In this document: positions 26,993 through 52,907 of the stretch, piece by piece
Numbering within the stretch: position 1 is the stretch's first letter
Layout of the letters: every line of letters begins with the position of its first letter
Assembly (NCBI RefSeq): GCF_000735135.1
Contig: NZ_JPLZ01000006.1
Location: forward strand, 1,054,001 to 1,118,000
Origin: Chryseobacterium sp. FH1
GTDB taxonomy: Bacteria; Bacteroidota; Bacteroidia; Flavobacteriales; Weeksellaceae
Length of the DNA: 64,000 nucleotides
Direction: 5' to 3'
Translations under genes and position numbers: made by a program
The notes under the pieces: generated by a model
Told to the model about the DNA's origin: nothing
Database searches by the model: none
Seen by the model: the letters and a program-made list of their open reading frames with translations, nothing else

Positions 26993-28123
26993 ATGTTTCC
27001 GTATCTGTTTGTTTTTGCGATTAGTATATTTTCCACATATCTGGCTCAGATCTCTCTGAACCGGAAAAATAAAGTTCTATTCTTTGTTTTTTCGGCAATT
27101 GCAATACTTACACCCTCATTATTGGCAGGTTTTAGAGATTCTGGCGTTGGAACAGATACAAAAATATATGTAGATTCTGTATGGAATCAGTTTAAACATA
27201 TTCAGAGTTGGGGACAGTTTTATAAGTATTATAAGAATGATGCCTTCGCTGATATAGAGTTTGTATATCTATTACTTAATTTTGTAGGATCCCGTTTTGG
27301 AACCGATGTTCACATTATATATTTTTTAACAAGCTTCGTTATTGTTTTGTTTGTTTATTTGACAGCGTATGACAATAGGAAAAAGGCTTATATGTGGCTG
27401 GTGATGTTTGTATTTCTATTTGGTTTTTACAATCAGTCACTCAACCTGGTCCGACAAACCATCTGTTTGACTTTGTGTTTGTATGGATTCAAATATTTGG
27501 AAGAAAAGAAGTGGATCAAGTTTATTTTATTATTGATTGTAATTAAGTATACACATAACACGGGGATCTTTTATTTTGGTTTTATAGGTGCGTACATATT
27601 AGCAGTTTCAAAATATAAGGCGAAACACTTGGTACTATTCACTACACTTACTTGCTGTGTATTCATATTTATGTACTTCGATTACATCGTAGGTTTATTT
27701 GTAGTTCTGGGCATTCTACCGCAGAAATTTTTATACTACCTCAGTGGAGATACAATTAACTATGTTTTTGTATTTATTTTCCACTTTGCAATAAGTATGA
27801 TTTTATTAGTAGCTTTAATTTTCAACATAAAATCAAATGAAAAAGATAAATTAATATCCTACATGTTTCTAAACTTATTAGGATCGATTCTCATTCTTAC
27901 AGCATTAGTTTCTGTCTGGTCATTCAGAGTAGCATTTTACTTCTTATTTATCAGTGAGTGTATCTTGCTTCCAAGAGCATTATTTCTGATGAGAAAACAT
28001 AAATTAGAATATTCAATATTAATACTTCTTGTAGTATCCATGTTTTTCACATATTGGTTTACGACTATTGCCTATTATAATGAAAATGAAACTTATCCTT
28101 ATAAATCCGAAATATTAGAGTAG
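26993..28123 (+). CDS. EpsG-family membrane protein, putative polysaccharide polymerase (Wzy)
   Basis: 376 residues from ATG 26993 (MFPYLFVF). About ten hydrophobic helices and the N-terminal pattern AGFRDSGVGTDTKIYVD, which is characteristic of the EpsG/Wzy-like family (G-x-R-D-x-x-x-G-x-D). A long non-membrane loop follows. Such proteins polymerise lipid-linked repeat units in the periplasm. Sequence similarity among polymerases is low, so the role rests on the EpsG-like motif plus position between the flippase and the glycosyltransferases. No other candidate polymerase is present in the locus. Confidence 0.8.
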   Translation: MFPYLFVFAISIFSTYLAQISLNRKNKVLFFVFSAIAILTPSLLAGFRDSGVGTDTKIYVDSVWNQFKHIQSWGQFYKYYKNDAFADIEFVYLLLNFVGSRFGTDVHIIYFLTSFVIVLFVYLTAYDNRKKAYMWLVMFVFLFGFYNQSLNLVRQTICLTLCLYGFKYLEEKKWIKFILLLIVIKYTHNTGIFYFGFIGAYILAVSKYKAKHLVLFTTLTCCVFIFMYFDYIVGLFVVLGILPQKFLYYLSGDTINYVFVFIFHFAISMILLVALIFNIKSNEKDKLISYMFLNLLGSILILTALVSVWSFRVAFYFLFISECILLPRALFLMRKHKLEYSILILLVVSMFFTYWFTTIAYYNENETYPYKSEILE

Positions 28124-48949: not shown

Positions 48950-50245
48950 GTGTTAAGTCTCTTAAAATTTCAAAACGCTCTTGAGCAATTACAACCTCAG
49001 TCGCAACAAAAAACATACCTTTTAGCGGTAAGTGGAGGCGTGGACTCTATGGTTTTGGCTGATTTGTTTGAGGTTTCAGGTTTGAAATTTCAAGTCGCAC
49101 ATATCAATTATCATCTTCGTAATGAGGATTCGAAGCTCGATCAGAAAGTGGTTTCAGACTTTTGCGAACTTTACAAAATTCCTTTTCATTTGTACGAAGT
49201 TTCGGAGAAGGATAAAAAGCCGGAAAATTCTATCCAGAATTGGGCGCGGGAATTACGTTACCAGTTTTTCCGAAAAATCCAAAAGGAACAAAATCTCGAA
49301 TATCTTGTCACAGCGCATCATTTGAATGATCAGTTGGAAACTTTCATCATCAATCTTTCCAAAGCTTCTGGTGTAAAAGGTTTGAGTGGAATTCCTGCGA
49401 ATCAGAATCAAATTATTCGCCCGCTTCTTGATTTTTCTAAAGATGAGATTTATGAATTTGCTAAGGAAAACAAAATTGAATTTCGCGAAGATAAGTCGAA
49501 TCAAAAATCCGATTATCTAAGGAATAAAATCCGACACAATATTGTTCCAGAATTTGAAAAGATCAATCCAGATTTTCTAAATAATTTTTCGAAAAGCATC
49601 AGTTATATCAATCAAGCTAAAAATTTTATTGATGAATTTGTGGATGAAAAAATTGAAGCTTTCAAAATAAATTCTGACGAAAATCAAGCCATTATTAATA
49701 AAGAAAAATTATCACAGGAATCTGAACTGGTCAGGTATGAGATTTTGAAAAGATTTGGTTTCACCGATGAAAATGAAATGCAAAAAGTGCTGACTTCTCA
49801 AACTGGAAGTTCATTCTTTAATTCTAAATTTCAACTAATCATTAATCGAAATGAATTGATTTTTAGTAAGAAGCTAGAAGTAGTAAATGAGAATTTAGAA
49901 GAAATAGCGCTTGAAATTATGGATGGCGAAATCGTAATTCCTCAAAATATTAAAAATGAGATTCAGGAATTTGGAAATTGTTTTTGGAAATTTGATAAAG
50001 AGAAAGTTCAGCAACCTTTGAAATTACGAAAAAAACAAGAAGGCGATTTGTTTTTCCCTATTGGAATGATTGGAAAAAAGAAAATTTCGAAGTTTTTTAA
50101 AGATGAAAAATTGTCTATTTTAGCCAAGCAAAAAATCTGGCTTCTTTGTGATGCTAATGAACAGATTATCGGTGTTTTACCTTTTCGGCAAGATGGGAGG
50201 TTTGCTTCCGAGGAAATTGAAAGAACATTATCATTGTTCATTTAA
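48950..50245 (+). CDS. tilS: tRNA(Ile)-lysidine synthase
   Basis: 431 residues, GTG start chosen because the promoter leaves room for it and no ATG fits before the P-loop. TilS joins lysine to C34 of tRNA-Ile(CAU) using ATP, so that the tRNA reads AUA. The PP-loop motif is SGGVDS (residues 28-33), followed by HINYHLR, a conserved TAHHLNDQLET and the RNA-binding part. The C-terminal TilS domain includes LRKKQEGDLFFPIGM and KKISKFFKDEKLS. Essential in most bacteria. It is the first gene of a short plus-strand run. Confidence 0.94.
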   Translation: MLSLLKFQNALEQLQPQSQQKTYLLAVSGGVDSMVLADLFEVSGLKFQVAHINYHLRNEDSKLDQKVVSDFCELYKIPFHLYEVSEKDKKPENSIQNWARELRYQFFRKIQKEQNLEYLVTAHHLNDQLETFIINLSKASGVKGLSGIPANQNQIIRPLLDFSKDEIYEFAKENKIEFREDKSNQKSDYLRNKIRHNIVPEFEKINPDFLNNFSKSISYINQAKNFIDEFVDEKIEAFKINSDENQAIINKEKLSQESELVRYEILKRFGFTDENEMQKVLTSQTGSSFFNSKFQLIINRNELIFSKKLEVVNENLEEIALEIMDGEIVIPQNIKNEIQEFGNCFWKFDKEKVQQPLKLRKKQEGDLFFPIGMIGKKKISKFFKDEKLSILAKQKIWLLCDANEQIIGVLPFRQDGRFASEEIERTLSLFI

Positions 50246-50253
50246 AAATAATT

Positions 50254-50272
50254 AACCACATAGACACATAGA
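50254..50272. repeat. Left inverted repeat beside the GxxExxY gene
   Basis: AACCACATAGACACATAGA, 47 bases before the GxxExxY start. It pairs with the repeat at 50800-50818 with one mismatch. Confidence 0.8.
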
Positions 50273-50318
50273 AAAATTTAAGTTTTTTTTAGCGTGAAAA
50301 ATTAAGTTAACATAGTAA

Positions 50319-50723
50319 ATGACACAAAAACAGATTACAGAACTGACTTACAAAATTTTGGGAGCTTGTATTGAAGTTCATAAGATTTTAGGTCCAGGTC
50401 TTTTGGAAAGTGTTTATCATAAAGCTTTGCAAGAAGAATTTAAAATTCAGGAAATAAATTTTAAATCTGAATTTATTATACCAGTAAACTATAAAGGAAT
50501 CGATTTAGATTGTGGATTTCAGTGTGATTTTATAATAGAAGATTCTATTGTTTTAGAAATAAAATCTGTTTCTGAATTACACGATATTCATAAAGCGCAA
50601 GTTTTAAATTATATGAGTTTGTTGAAACTACCGAAAGGAATATTGGTAAACTTTAATGTTTCAAATATTTTCAAAGAAGGACAAAAAACATTTGTAAATA
50701 AATATTACGAACGATTAAACTAA
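50319..50723 (+). CDS. GxxExxY family protein (PD-(D/E)xK-like)
   Basis: 134 residues. The naming motif is G27-x2-E30-x2-Y33 in LGPGLLESVYHKAL. A nuclease-type core follows: Asp70 and Glu80-Ile-Lys82 in CDFIIEDSIVLEIKSV, which fits the PD-(D/E)xK pattern with all three acidic/basic residues present. No signal peptide. The family is widespread in Bacteroidetes, often in many copies per genome, and has no firmly established function. Here the gene is flanked by a 19-base inverted repeat (50254 and 50800) and sits between tilS and dsbD, whose own functions are unrelated, so it looks like an inserted cassette. Confidence 0.9.
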   Translation: MTQKQITELTYKILGACIEVHKILGPGLLESVYHKALQEEFKIQEINFKSEFIIPVNYKGIDLDCGFQCDFIIEDSIVLEIKSVSELHDIHKAQVLNYMSLLKLPKGILVNFNVSNIFKEGQKTFVNKYYERLN

Positions 50724-50799
50724 AAACCATTTACACATATTGGAATTTATAAGAATGGTATCTATTTTACCTTTTTAATTTCCTTTATTGAAAATTAAA

Positions 50800-50818
50800 T
50801 CTATGTGCCTATGTGGTT
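50800..50818. repeat. Right inverted repeat beside the GxxExxY gene
   Basis: TCTATGTGCCTATGTGGTT, the reverse complement of the left repeat with one change. It ends 16 bases before the dsbD ATG. Confidence 0.8.
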
Positions 50819-50834
50819 CAAATAAATTTTAAAA

Positions 50835-52907
50835 ATGAAAGACTTAAAACTAGTGTTATCCACACTTTTTATATTCATCATCACCATTTTCAACGCTCAG
50901 ATCAAGAATCCTGTCAAGTTCAAATTTGATGTGGTTTCTGTTGGCAATGATCAATACGAAGCGGTTCTGACGGGGACAATCGAAGACAAATGGCACATCT
51001 ACTCCAAAGATCTTCCGCCAGATTCTGGAATCCCAACTGAGTTCAAGGTCACTTCAAAAGAAGGAATCCAATTGATCGGAAAAGTGACCGAAGTTGGTAA
51101 AAAGCACGACGAATTCTCGGAAGCTTTTGGGGCGCAGATAGTTTATTATTCTGACAAAGTGGTTTTCAAACAGAAGTTCAAGCCGAAAGATGCTTCGAAA
51201 CCTGCGACGATCACAGCTGAGATAATGTATCAAACTTGTAACGACAGAGTTTGTCTGGCGCCAAATACATTAGAATTTGAAAAGCAAATTACAGGAACTG
51301 CGACTGCTGTGGCTACCGAAGAAAATGTTGAAAAAACAAAAGATACTGTTTACGAAGTTGCGCCTGCAGGACAAGTCGGCACTATTTTGAAACCAACAAA
51401 TATTGAACAAACTCCTGTAGCAAAACAAGACGGTTTGCGCGTTAACTCTTTAGATTTCAAAAATCCATTGACAGATTGCGGAACTGTTGCGCAAAAACCG
51501 AATGATGACAATTGGCTTGTTTTAGGTCTTGGTTTCCTAGGTGGATTGATCGCGTTGCTCACGCCGTGCGTTTTTCCAATGATTCCGCTCACGGTTTCGT
51601 TCTTCACAAAAGGTAATAAGGACAAAGCGAAAGGGAAGCGAGATGCTTTTATTTACGGATTTTTTATCTTGTTGATTTTCGTTTTATTGAGTATTCCTTT
51701 TCATATTATTGATGGGATCTCTGGGAATATTTTCAACCAGATCTCGACCAATATTTGGCTGAATTTATTCTTCTTTGCGATATTTTTATTTTTTGCCTTA
51801 AGCTTTTTTGGTTATTACGAAATCACGTTGCCAAGCTGGATCGCGAACAAATCTTCAAAAGCTGAGGAAGCAGGTGGCATAATCGGGATATTCTTTATGG
51901 CGCTGACATTGGTCATCGTCTCATTCTCCTGTACAGGTCCGATTTTGGGAAGTTTGCTTGGTGGAGTAGTTGCGGGAGCTACAAATGTTCCGACACTTTT
52001 AACTTTTGCTTTAGGCGGTTTTGGATTGGCTTGGGCATTGGTTTTTGGCTTGTTGGCCTTGTTTCCGCAGGCGCTTCAAAGTTTGCCAAAATCTGGTGGT
52101 TGGATGAACACGGTGAAAGTGGTTCTTGGTTTTATTGAGTTGGCTTTGGCTTTAAAATTCCTATCGAAAGCGGATCTGGTTTCCAAAACTTTCTTGTTGA
52201 AAAGAGAATTGTTCATCGTACTTTGGATTCTGATTGCAATTGGATTAGTAGTTTATTTATTTGGTAAAATCAGATTTCCGCACGATGACAAGAAACCGAA
52301 TATCAGTTTGGGAAGAAGGATTTTAGGGGTTTTCGGAATTGTTTTCGTGGCTTATTTGATTCAAGGATTGATTCCATCAGAAAAGCCGAAACTTCAAATG
52401 TTAAGCGGGATTTTGCCTCCGTTGAATGTCAGTTATTTCCACGATGAAAAAGACGGAATTCTTGGTTTGAAACCTTATCACAATTACTTCGAAGCGATAG
52501 AAGTTGCGAAGAGAGAGAACAAACCTGTTTTGATTGATTTCACGGGTTATGGTTGTGAGAACTGTAGAAAAATGGAAGAGTTTGTGTGGAGTCAGGATGA
52601 TATTTTGCCAATCCTTCAAAACGACTTGATCATCGCTTCTGTGTATGTGGATGACAAGGAGGAATTGCCGGAAAATGAGCAACTTAAAATCGATATGGGC
52701 GAAGGTCAAATGAAAAAGATCAAAACAATTGGAGATAAATGGAGTTTGTTCCAGCAGGTTAATTTCAATAATAATTCTCAGCCTCATTATGTTTTGGTAA
52801 CGCCAGATCAAAAAGTGATCAACATTCCGGTTTCTGGTTATATGCCAAAAGAGGATTTTAAAAAATTTCTGAAATGTGGAATTGATTTTTATAAAAACAA
52901 TAATTAA
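50835..52907 (+). CDS. dsbD: Thiol:disulfide interchange protein DsbD
   Basis: 690 residues, inner-membrane electron carrier that moves reducing power from cytosolic thioredoxin to periplasmic proteins. All three parts are present: signal peptide then the N-terminal periplasmic domain (about 25-150, with the Cys pair in YQTCNDRVCLAP); the membrane domain (about 235-520) with one redox Cys in LLTPCVFPMIPL and the other in SFSCTGPILGS; and a C-terminal thioredoxin-like domain with CENC near residue 575 (GYGCENCRKMEEF). A linker of about 85 residues between the first two domains is long. It overlaps no gene; the GNAT gene follows directly. Confidence 0.93.
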   Translation: MKDLKLVLSTLFIFIITIFNAQIKNPVKFKFDVVSVGNDQYEAVLTGTIEDKWHIYSKDLPPDSGIPTEFKVTSKEGIQLIGKVTEVGKKHDEFSEAFGAQIVYYSDKVVFKQKFKPKDASKPATITAEIMYQTCNDRVCLAPNTLEFEKQITGTATAVATEENVEKTKDTVYEVAPAGQVGTILKPTNIEQTPVAKQDGLRVNSLDFKNPLTDCGTVAQKPNDDNWLVLGLGFLGGLIALLTPCVFPMIPLTVSFFTKGNKDKAKGKRDAFIYGFFILLIFVLLSIPFHIIDGISGNIFNQISTNIWLNLFFFAIFLFFALSFFGYYEITLPSWIANKSSKAEEAGGIIGIFFMALTLVIVSFSCTGPILGSLLGGVVAGATNVPTLLTFALGGFGLAWALVFGLLALFPQALQSLPKSGGWMNTVKVVLGFIELALALKFLSKADLVSKTFLLKRELFIVLWILIAIGLVVYLFGKIRFPHDDKKPNISLGRRILGVFGIVFVAYLIQGLIPSEKPKLQMLSGILPPLNVSYFHDEKDGILGLKPYHNYFEAIEVAKRENKPVLIDFTGYGCENCRKMEEFVWSQDDILPILQNDLIIASVYVDDKEELPENEQLKIDMGEGQMKKIKTIGDKWSLFQQVNFNNNSQPHYVLVTPDQKVINIPVSGYMPKEDFKKFLKCGIDFYKNNN

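Follow-up and report, generated by a model that had tools for sequence, protein, structure and literature searches.

Introduction

REPINs are short inverted doublets that form hairpins and have a specific partner gene, RAYT (Bertels & Rainey, 2011, PMC3116915; PMC8049555); raw reads have been mined for traces of their excision (PMC3116915). Miniature inverted-repeat transposable elements (MITEs) have terminal inverted repeats of 15-30 bp and gene-less copies of 70-300 bp, and TIRYTs carry one small gene between inverted repeats (PMC3733652). Intervening sequences of the 23S rRNA with an S23 gene (PF05635) are short selfish elements of 428 nt with a small open reading frame (ORF) (PMC4990558). 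Here we analysed a stretch of 64,000 nucleotides of Chryseobacterium sp. FH1 (contig NZ_JPLZ01000006.1, positions 1,054,001 to 1,118,000), called the window below, and within it an element of 565 bp between tilS and dsbD, in which two facing repeats enclose a single gene of the GxxExxY family. On balance we favour the view that this is a gene-bearing member of a REPIN-like family of mobile hairpins, whose partner would be a Cas4/RecB-like PD-(D/E)XK nuclease and not a tyrosine transposase.

The element has in common with REPIN/RAYT systems its hairpin-forming inverted doublets, many extragenic copies, a partner gene and gene-less, non-autonomous copies. It differs in that the partner is nuclease-like rather than a tyrosine (Y1/HUH) transposase (the gene of the element belongs to PF13366, and no cognate Y1/HUH transposase lies within or beside it), in that its arms are tandem word pairs with no GTAG foot (by eye), and in that the gene lies inside the hairpin loop. 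Terminal inverted repeats, short gene-less copies and one small enclosed gene recall MITEs and TIRYTs, but there is no tyrosine transposase in the element and no clear target-site duplication. As in S23 intervening sequences, a small ORF sits in a short element; here, however, it lies between tilS and dsbD and not in rRNA, and the PF13366 protein is unrelated. From Cas4/RecB-like nucleases the protein differs by its shorter length, by having no invariant cysteines for an iron-sulphur (Fe-S) cluster and by not being encoded beside CRISPR genes, as judged from the neighbours at the locus.

The GxxExxY family is abundant in the phylum, yet among 5.39 million open-access papers just three from 2011 onwards name GxxExxY, PF13366 or TIGR04256 (PMC8934634, PMC12085832, PMC9756366). 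No description of the element was found in a search of this open-access literature. The frequent packaging of these genes in word-repeat hairpins gives a concrete candidate substrate for a large unstudied family, and could account for many of the repeats that abound between genes. Should the nuclease move the hairpins, it would represent a transposition chemistry distinct from that of DDE and HUH enzymes.

A palindrome with a gene in its loop, and its gene-less copies

The original prediction of inverted repeats around a single GxxExxY gene was borne out to the nucleotide: the outer arms are complementary at 18 of 19 positions and enclose one intact gene. It had also stated that the gene interrupts tilS and dsbD; neither gene is broken, and the element sits in their intergenic junction, between the tilS stop codon (50243-50245) and the dsbD start (50835). 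The parts of the element and its neighbours are as follows.

50254..50272, plus strand: left outer arm AACCACATAGACACATAGA, two CACATAG words (sequence, repeat search)
50300..50315, plus strand: left inner-stem segment AATTAAGTTAACATAG, degenerate, directly 5' of the start codon (by eye)
50319..50723, plus strand: GxxExxY gene, 134 amino acids, predicted PD-(D/E)XK fold, TIGR04256 and PF13366 (ORF, profiles, model)
50526..50612, plus strand: nuclease-core codons D70, E80, K82, Q94 and Y98 (alignment of 58 sequences)
50762..50776, plus strand: right inner-stem segment CTATTTTACCTTTTT, matching gene-less hairpins (by eye)
50800..50818, minus strand: right outer arm TCTATGTGCCTATGTGGTT (sequence, repeat search)
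48950..50245, plus strand: left neighbour, a PP-loop protein, called TilS after the original prediction; PP-loop also occurs in TilS (ORF, domains)
50835..52907, plus strand: right neighbour, DsbD, with DsbD domains (ORF, domains)

The unit thus reads outer arm, degenerate inner stem, GxxExxY gene, right inner stem, outer arm. Since the left inner stem lies before the start codon in several orthologues (in L082, L077 and L051 it reads AAGATTAAATAG, directly 5' of that codon) and the right one after the stop codon in the window, the gene occupies the loop of a hairpin. This layout varies: some orthologues (e.g. L072, L051) have a short complete hairpin on one side of the gene and a second hairpin on the other. 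In the window element and in gene-less copies the feet of the palindrome read AACCAC...GTGGTT by eye. The 565-nt unit folds with a z of -3.5. No site resembling a terminator was called within it, and a reading of the repeats as terminators was rejected. Across the window, the generic word pair is matched exactly by the two arms only, against a mean of 0.17 matches in 100 shuffles; a weak minus-strand match with 2 mismatches lies at 27463-27479.

The sequences show the palindromic architecture, the dispersal of gene-less copies and the presence or absence of elements at given junctions. In the source genome the 19-nt arm occurs 46 times with up to 2 mismatches (26 forward, 20 reverse), against 0 for the backward control. 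By our own pairing these arms make up 16 inverted pairs, 15 of them gene-less (94-123 bp) and one with the gene, plus 14 unpaired arms. Most units without a gene share an inner stem of the type AAGATAAAATAG/CTATTTTATCTT, and they form hairpins: 15 do so as RNA, and two tested as DNA gave z values of -7.7 and -5.8. Five of the 15 gene-less pairs lie between convergent ORFs, by crude ORF calls. A comparison with known RNA families returned only two matches, to small nucleolar RNA models, far below gathering scores. The original prediction had held that repeats occurring mostly without the gene would speak against a cassette; literally this is what we found, yet the copies that lack the gene turn out to be hairpins sharing these arms. 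A nested array of ACATAG and ACAAAAG elements with REP-like sequence (REP, repetitive extragenic palindrome) inside was observed at L356 (G017:C24:9100-10060).

Presence and absence at orthologous junctions

We compared three junctions across 23 genomes of the genus, assigning element labels by eye. At the tilS-dsbD junction the gene-bearing ACATAG element is present in seven genomes, and a clean empty junction of 9 nt, of the kind that the original prediction had proposed to look for, was found in seven others; the remaining nine have a gene-less CACAAAG-type element (3), decayed remnants (4) or a different REP-like sequence (2). At a glycosyltransferase junction, whose gene we take to be bshA, 22 of the 23 genomes could be compared: five carry a gene-bearing element, two have arms around a gene remnant and seven have none, while in the rest the arms contain another element or are decayed (5) or the gene order is different (3). 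The two remnants (L357 and L367) consist of intact ACAAAAG arms around what is left of a GxxExxY gene start, and are likely intermediates between gene-bearing and gene-less copies. At a flavin-reductase junction, 15 of the 23 genomes were parsed, with an ACTTAAG gene in four, a gene-less CACAAAG element in three and other arrangements or none in eight; G006, outside these 15, carries an ACAAAAG gene. Since relatives show the same junctions variously as empty, gene-bearing, gene-deleted or otherwise occupied, the mobile cassette first proposed is well supported. The repeats are not private to the gene.

A predicted PD-(D/E)XK nuclease

The protein matches TIGR04256 at 135.8 bits (cut-off 35) and PF13366 at 133.4 bits (cut-off 22). 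The nuclease-like D-ExK core that had been read from its translation is indeed intact (D70, E80-x-K82, Q94xxxY98): D70, E80, K82 and Y98 are invariant in 58 sequences and Q94 is present in at least 90% of them. The predicted structure model (predicted local distance difference test, pLDDT, of 97) gave matches to PD-(D/E)XK structures in one comparison, while Foldseek had no match at an E value of 0.001 or better (best 1.2e-3). Among known systems, the Cas4/RecB-like nucleases (4ic1, SSO0001, a Cas4) are among the closest. We describe the protein as having a predicted Cas4/RecB-like PD-(D/E)XK nuclease fold with intact catalytic residues. Conserved Fe-S cysteines are a feature of Cas4; across the 58 sequences, no cysteine falls in an invariant or nearly invariant column. 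A Pfam scan of the gene returned only PF13366 and one Cas4 match below cut-off, and no known transposase domain. The gene is under purifying selection.

Membership in a known defence system was considered and rejected. PADLOC gave Cas4 models, the best at E 8.7e-5, and a single further model that was also weak, and PHROGs one family annotated as CRISPR/Cas associated (E 4.7e-8); with no CRISPR gene at the locus, we read these matches as a shared fold.

Inverted repeats around other GxxExxY genes

Of 296 genomes sampled from the phylum, 152 were found to contain GxxExxY genes, frequently several of them. To each gene we assigned the score of the best inverted repeat between its flanks (up to 300 nt per side), and counted it as passing if the score exceeded 32, a threshold set at the 95th percentile for 800 mismatched pairs of flanks from the genus and order set. 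In that set 56 of 80 genes pass, with 0/80 in the reversed control (82 genes were found, two being left out for short flanks; matches under the family cut-off and a few fragments do not form entries of their own). The phylum sample gave 36 of 70, against 2% of mismatched pairs and 0/70 in the reversed control; it is not a random sample, as its loci come from the best-scoring rows of a longer match list (30 + 40). For the window clade in named genomes (80 of 104 relatives kept, one of these dropped), 69 of 79 pass and 0/79 reversed controls do, though mismatched pairs here reach 31% because many loci have the same words. Within the window only one of 48 genes passes, the GxxExxY gene itself. 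The generic word CRCANAG points inward at GxxExxY genes in all three sets (125 vs 51 in the genus, 286 vs 74 in the phylum, 34 vs 11 in the window clade). The original prediction had proposed to look for the same repeats around other GxxExxY genes, and held that genes without them would argue against a cassette. Their flanks have other sequence, but in many cases the same design with words of their own (56/80; 36/70), so that genes without these particular flanks fit the pattern.

This design is a short word in tandem. When one element scoring above 32 is taken from each of 66 locus groups (a few loci occur twice across data sets), 102 of 132 arms contain a word that recurs 7-11 nt further on, most often at 9 nt, against a mean of 14.7 and a maximum of 23 in 200 mononucleotide shuffles. 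The words differ by locus and include CACATAG, CACAAAAG, ACTTAAG, CGCAAAG, GCAGAT and CACAGAG. Arm similarity rises with protein identity (Spearman 0.32, 0 of 300 permutations; 158 elements scoring above 32, 11174 different-locus pairs), with means of 8.5, 8.1, 9.4, 13.2 and 17.9 at identities of 30-40, 40-50, 50-60, 60-70 and above 70%; the means are flat at the lower identities, so the rise is confined to closer protein pairs. At one junction, represented by 49 loci, the distribution of the three main types of word follows the protein tree (support values not given). The ACATAG protein of Algoriphagus adjoined the Epilithonimonas clade in an early tree without support values, a placement that the rooted tree does not support.

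Copy number and gene presence

Within the genus, the seven genomes with an ACATAG-flanked gene have 16-45 exact ACATAG arms; the other 16 have 0-19, with a median of 1 (one-sided Mann-Whitney p=1.2e-4). The association holds in phylogenetic contrasts with the element's own arms subtracted (r=0.61, p=0.002), for which the tree was made with 2 kb counted from the dsbD start. For ACAAAAG arms the medians are 27 with the gene and 13 without (p=0.028; contrasts r=0.46, p=0.029).

We also counted arms in 10 genomes outside the genus, reached through their loci, using the pattern ACCACATAGNNACATAG, slightly looser than that of the genus count. More than one arm was found only in Algoriphagus boseongensis (21) and Elizabethkingia occulta (35), the other eight having 0-1. 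Algoriphagus had been picked for its ACATAG-flanked gene and the gene-bearing copy of Elizabethkingia (L415) was found after the count; in the other eight a gene-bearing copy was not searched for. Thirteen of the 21 Algoriphagus arms lie in two tandem arrays (7 + 6 arms) of one orientation each (G333:C1:794641-796987 and 811938-813405; L406-L424), and one array that we read is mixed with CGCAAAG-type words.

Proposed mechanism and alternatives

In our proposal every element is a palindrome, and its outer arms usually contain a short word twice in tandem. The loop is short in most copies; in a few it holds a GxxExxY gene. We infer from the layout, the copy numbers and the fold that the protein would recognise the words, be it as duplex DNA, as a cruciform or as a single-strand hairpin, and would cut at the foot of the hairpin. 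By cutting, it could cause its own element to be excised, copied or spread and, in trans, do the same for gene-less copies, which may arise by internal deletion. Copy-number association and the co-variation of words and proteins give indirect support, with exceptions, to the idea that the nuclease may act on its own repeats. A stronger form, in which GxxExxY proteins are the mobilising enzymes of an undescribed, phylum-wide class of hairpins, with word recognition diversifying along with the protein in a RAYT-like role, is a tentative proposal. Our confidence in both forms is held back by the fact that part of the data may reflect a transposase that we did not see, or the shared descent of a gene and arms that are linked.

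Several observations weigh against the nuclease as mobilising partner. Repeats are not universal, 24/80 genes in the genus and order set and 34/70 in the phylum sample scoring at or below 32. The ACATAG-flanked gene of Elizabethkingia encodes a protein only 54% identical to that of the window, without a supported sister relation, and the protein most identical to it (62%) has ACAAAAG words, which means that words do not strictly mark protein clades; as gene and arms are linked, common descent alone would yield some co-variation. Three genomes (G003, G018, G022) have 16, 19 and 12 ACATAG arms although none of their GxxExxY genes is ACATAG-flanked. ACAAAAG arms are found in 23/23 genomes of the genus, including 16 without an ACAAAAG-flanked gene (2-31 arms), and the one-sided rank test for this word gives p=0.044 once own arms are subtracted. 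ACTTAAG arms number 3-6 with the gene (own arms included) and 0-3 without, and one genome has 1 in the backward control; numbers are low everywhere, and ACTTAAG is a weak candidate for a third family that proliferates. There is no clear target-site duplication in 18 ACATAG and 51 ACAAAAG elements: of the 36 offset pairs examined for each length, even the best gives a weak excess (e.g. 3/18 vs 0.28 at length 4; z <=2.8), and these excesses differ between the two families, and AT-rich flanks, like the TTTAA on both sides at G005, are indistinguishable from an extended palindrome. A host function, too, would account for a gene that is kept at one locus under purifying selection. Finally, the activity is a predicted one, and the proposal is built from sequence comparison.

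It seems to us unlikely that another enzyme, a RAYT/IS200-like Y1 or some other insertion sequence transposase, moves the hairpins and that GxxExxY is a passenger, regulator or stabiliser. This would agree with Y1_Tnp matches in 19 of the 30 genomes searched, with the three genomes just mentioned (12-19 ACATAG arms), with ACAAAAG arms being present regardless of the gene, and with the REP-like and other repeats seen by eye inside loops (L341, L343, L356). Yet G005, without a PF01797 (Y1_Tnp) match at E 0.001, has 54 ACAAAAG arms, the repeats beside Y1 genes look by eye like ordinary REP hairpins of other sequence (6/11 pass), and copy number tracks the GxxExxY gene of the same word, transposases other than Y1 not having been searched for. 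That GxxExxY is instead a homing-endonuclease-like invader of pre-existing hairpin loops, which does not move the repeats, we consider improbable: ACATAG arms number at most 3 in 12 of the 16 gene-less genomes of the genus and 0-1 in eight of the 10 outside it, and gene-bearing and gene-less elements have arms and inner stems in common. The copy-number argument is weak for ACAAAAG. In favour of an invader, the gene does sit in a hairpin loop, where other repeats are also found (CGCAGAT-type at the bshA junction, by eye; REP-like in L341 and L343), and the same junction hosts genes with different words.

There is still less to be said for the hairpins being host regulatory sites (terminators, RNA-processing or nucleoid sites) of little mobility, with GxxExxY as a host nuclease that processes or resolves palindromes. 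The stability of the hairpins, with or without the gene, the gene-less pairs between convergent ORFs and the purifying selection on the gene would be expected of such sites; the lack of a terminator call, junctions that are empty in some genomes and occupied in others, nesting (L356) and exact ACATAG arm counts ranging from 0 to 45 in one genus would not. A chance palindrome around a random gene can practically be dismissed, with nothing in its favour, 46 copies against 0 in the backward control, and reversed controls of 0/80, 0/70 and 0/79.

Other small genes with flanking repeats

S23 and Y1_Tnp genes were considered as users of the same repeats and rejected, as their flanking repeats differ by eye; one locus in each set gave no ORF. 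The generic CRCANAG word shows no inward bias at S23 genes (6 inward, 8 opposite). In the same genomes, S23 genes (L121-L150) often have tandem-word repeats of a different kind beside them (TTTAGAC, GTTGATGG etc.), and 10 of 29 pass the inverted-repeat score. Y1_Tnp loci (L151-L162, e.g. L159 and L160), which are IS200-like or RAYT-like, have GC-richer REP-like hairpins near the gene ends.
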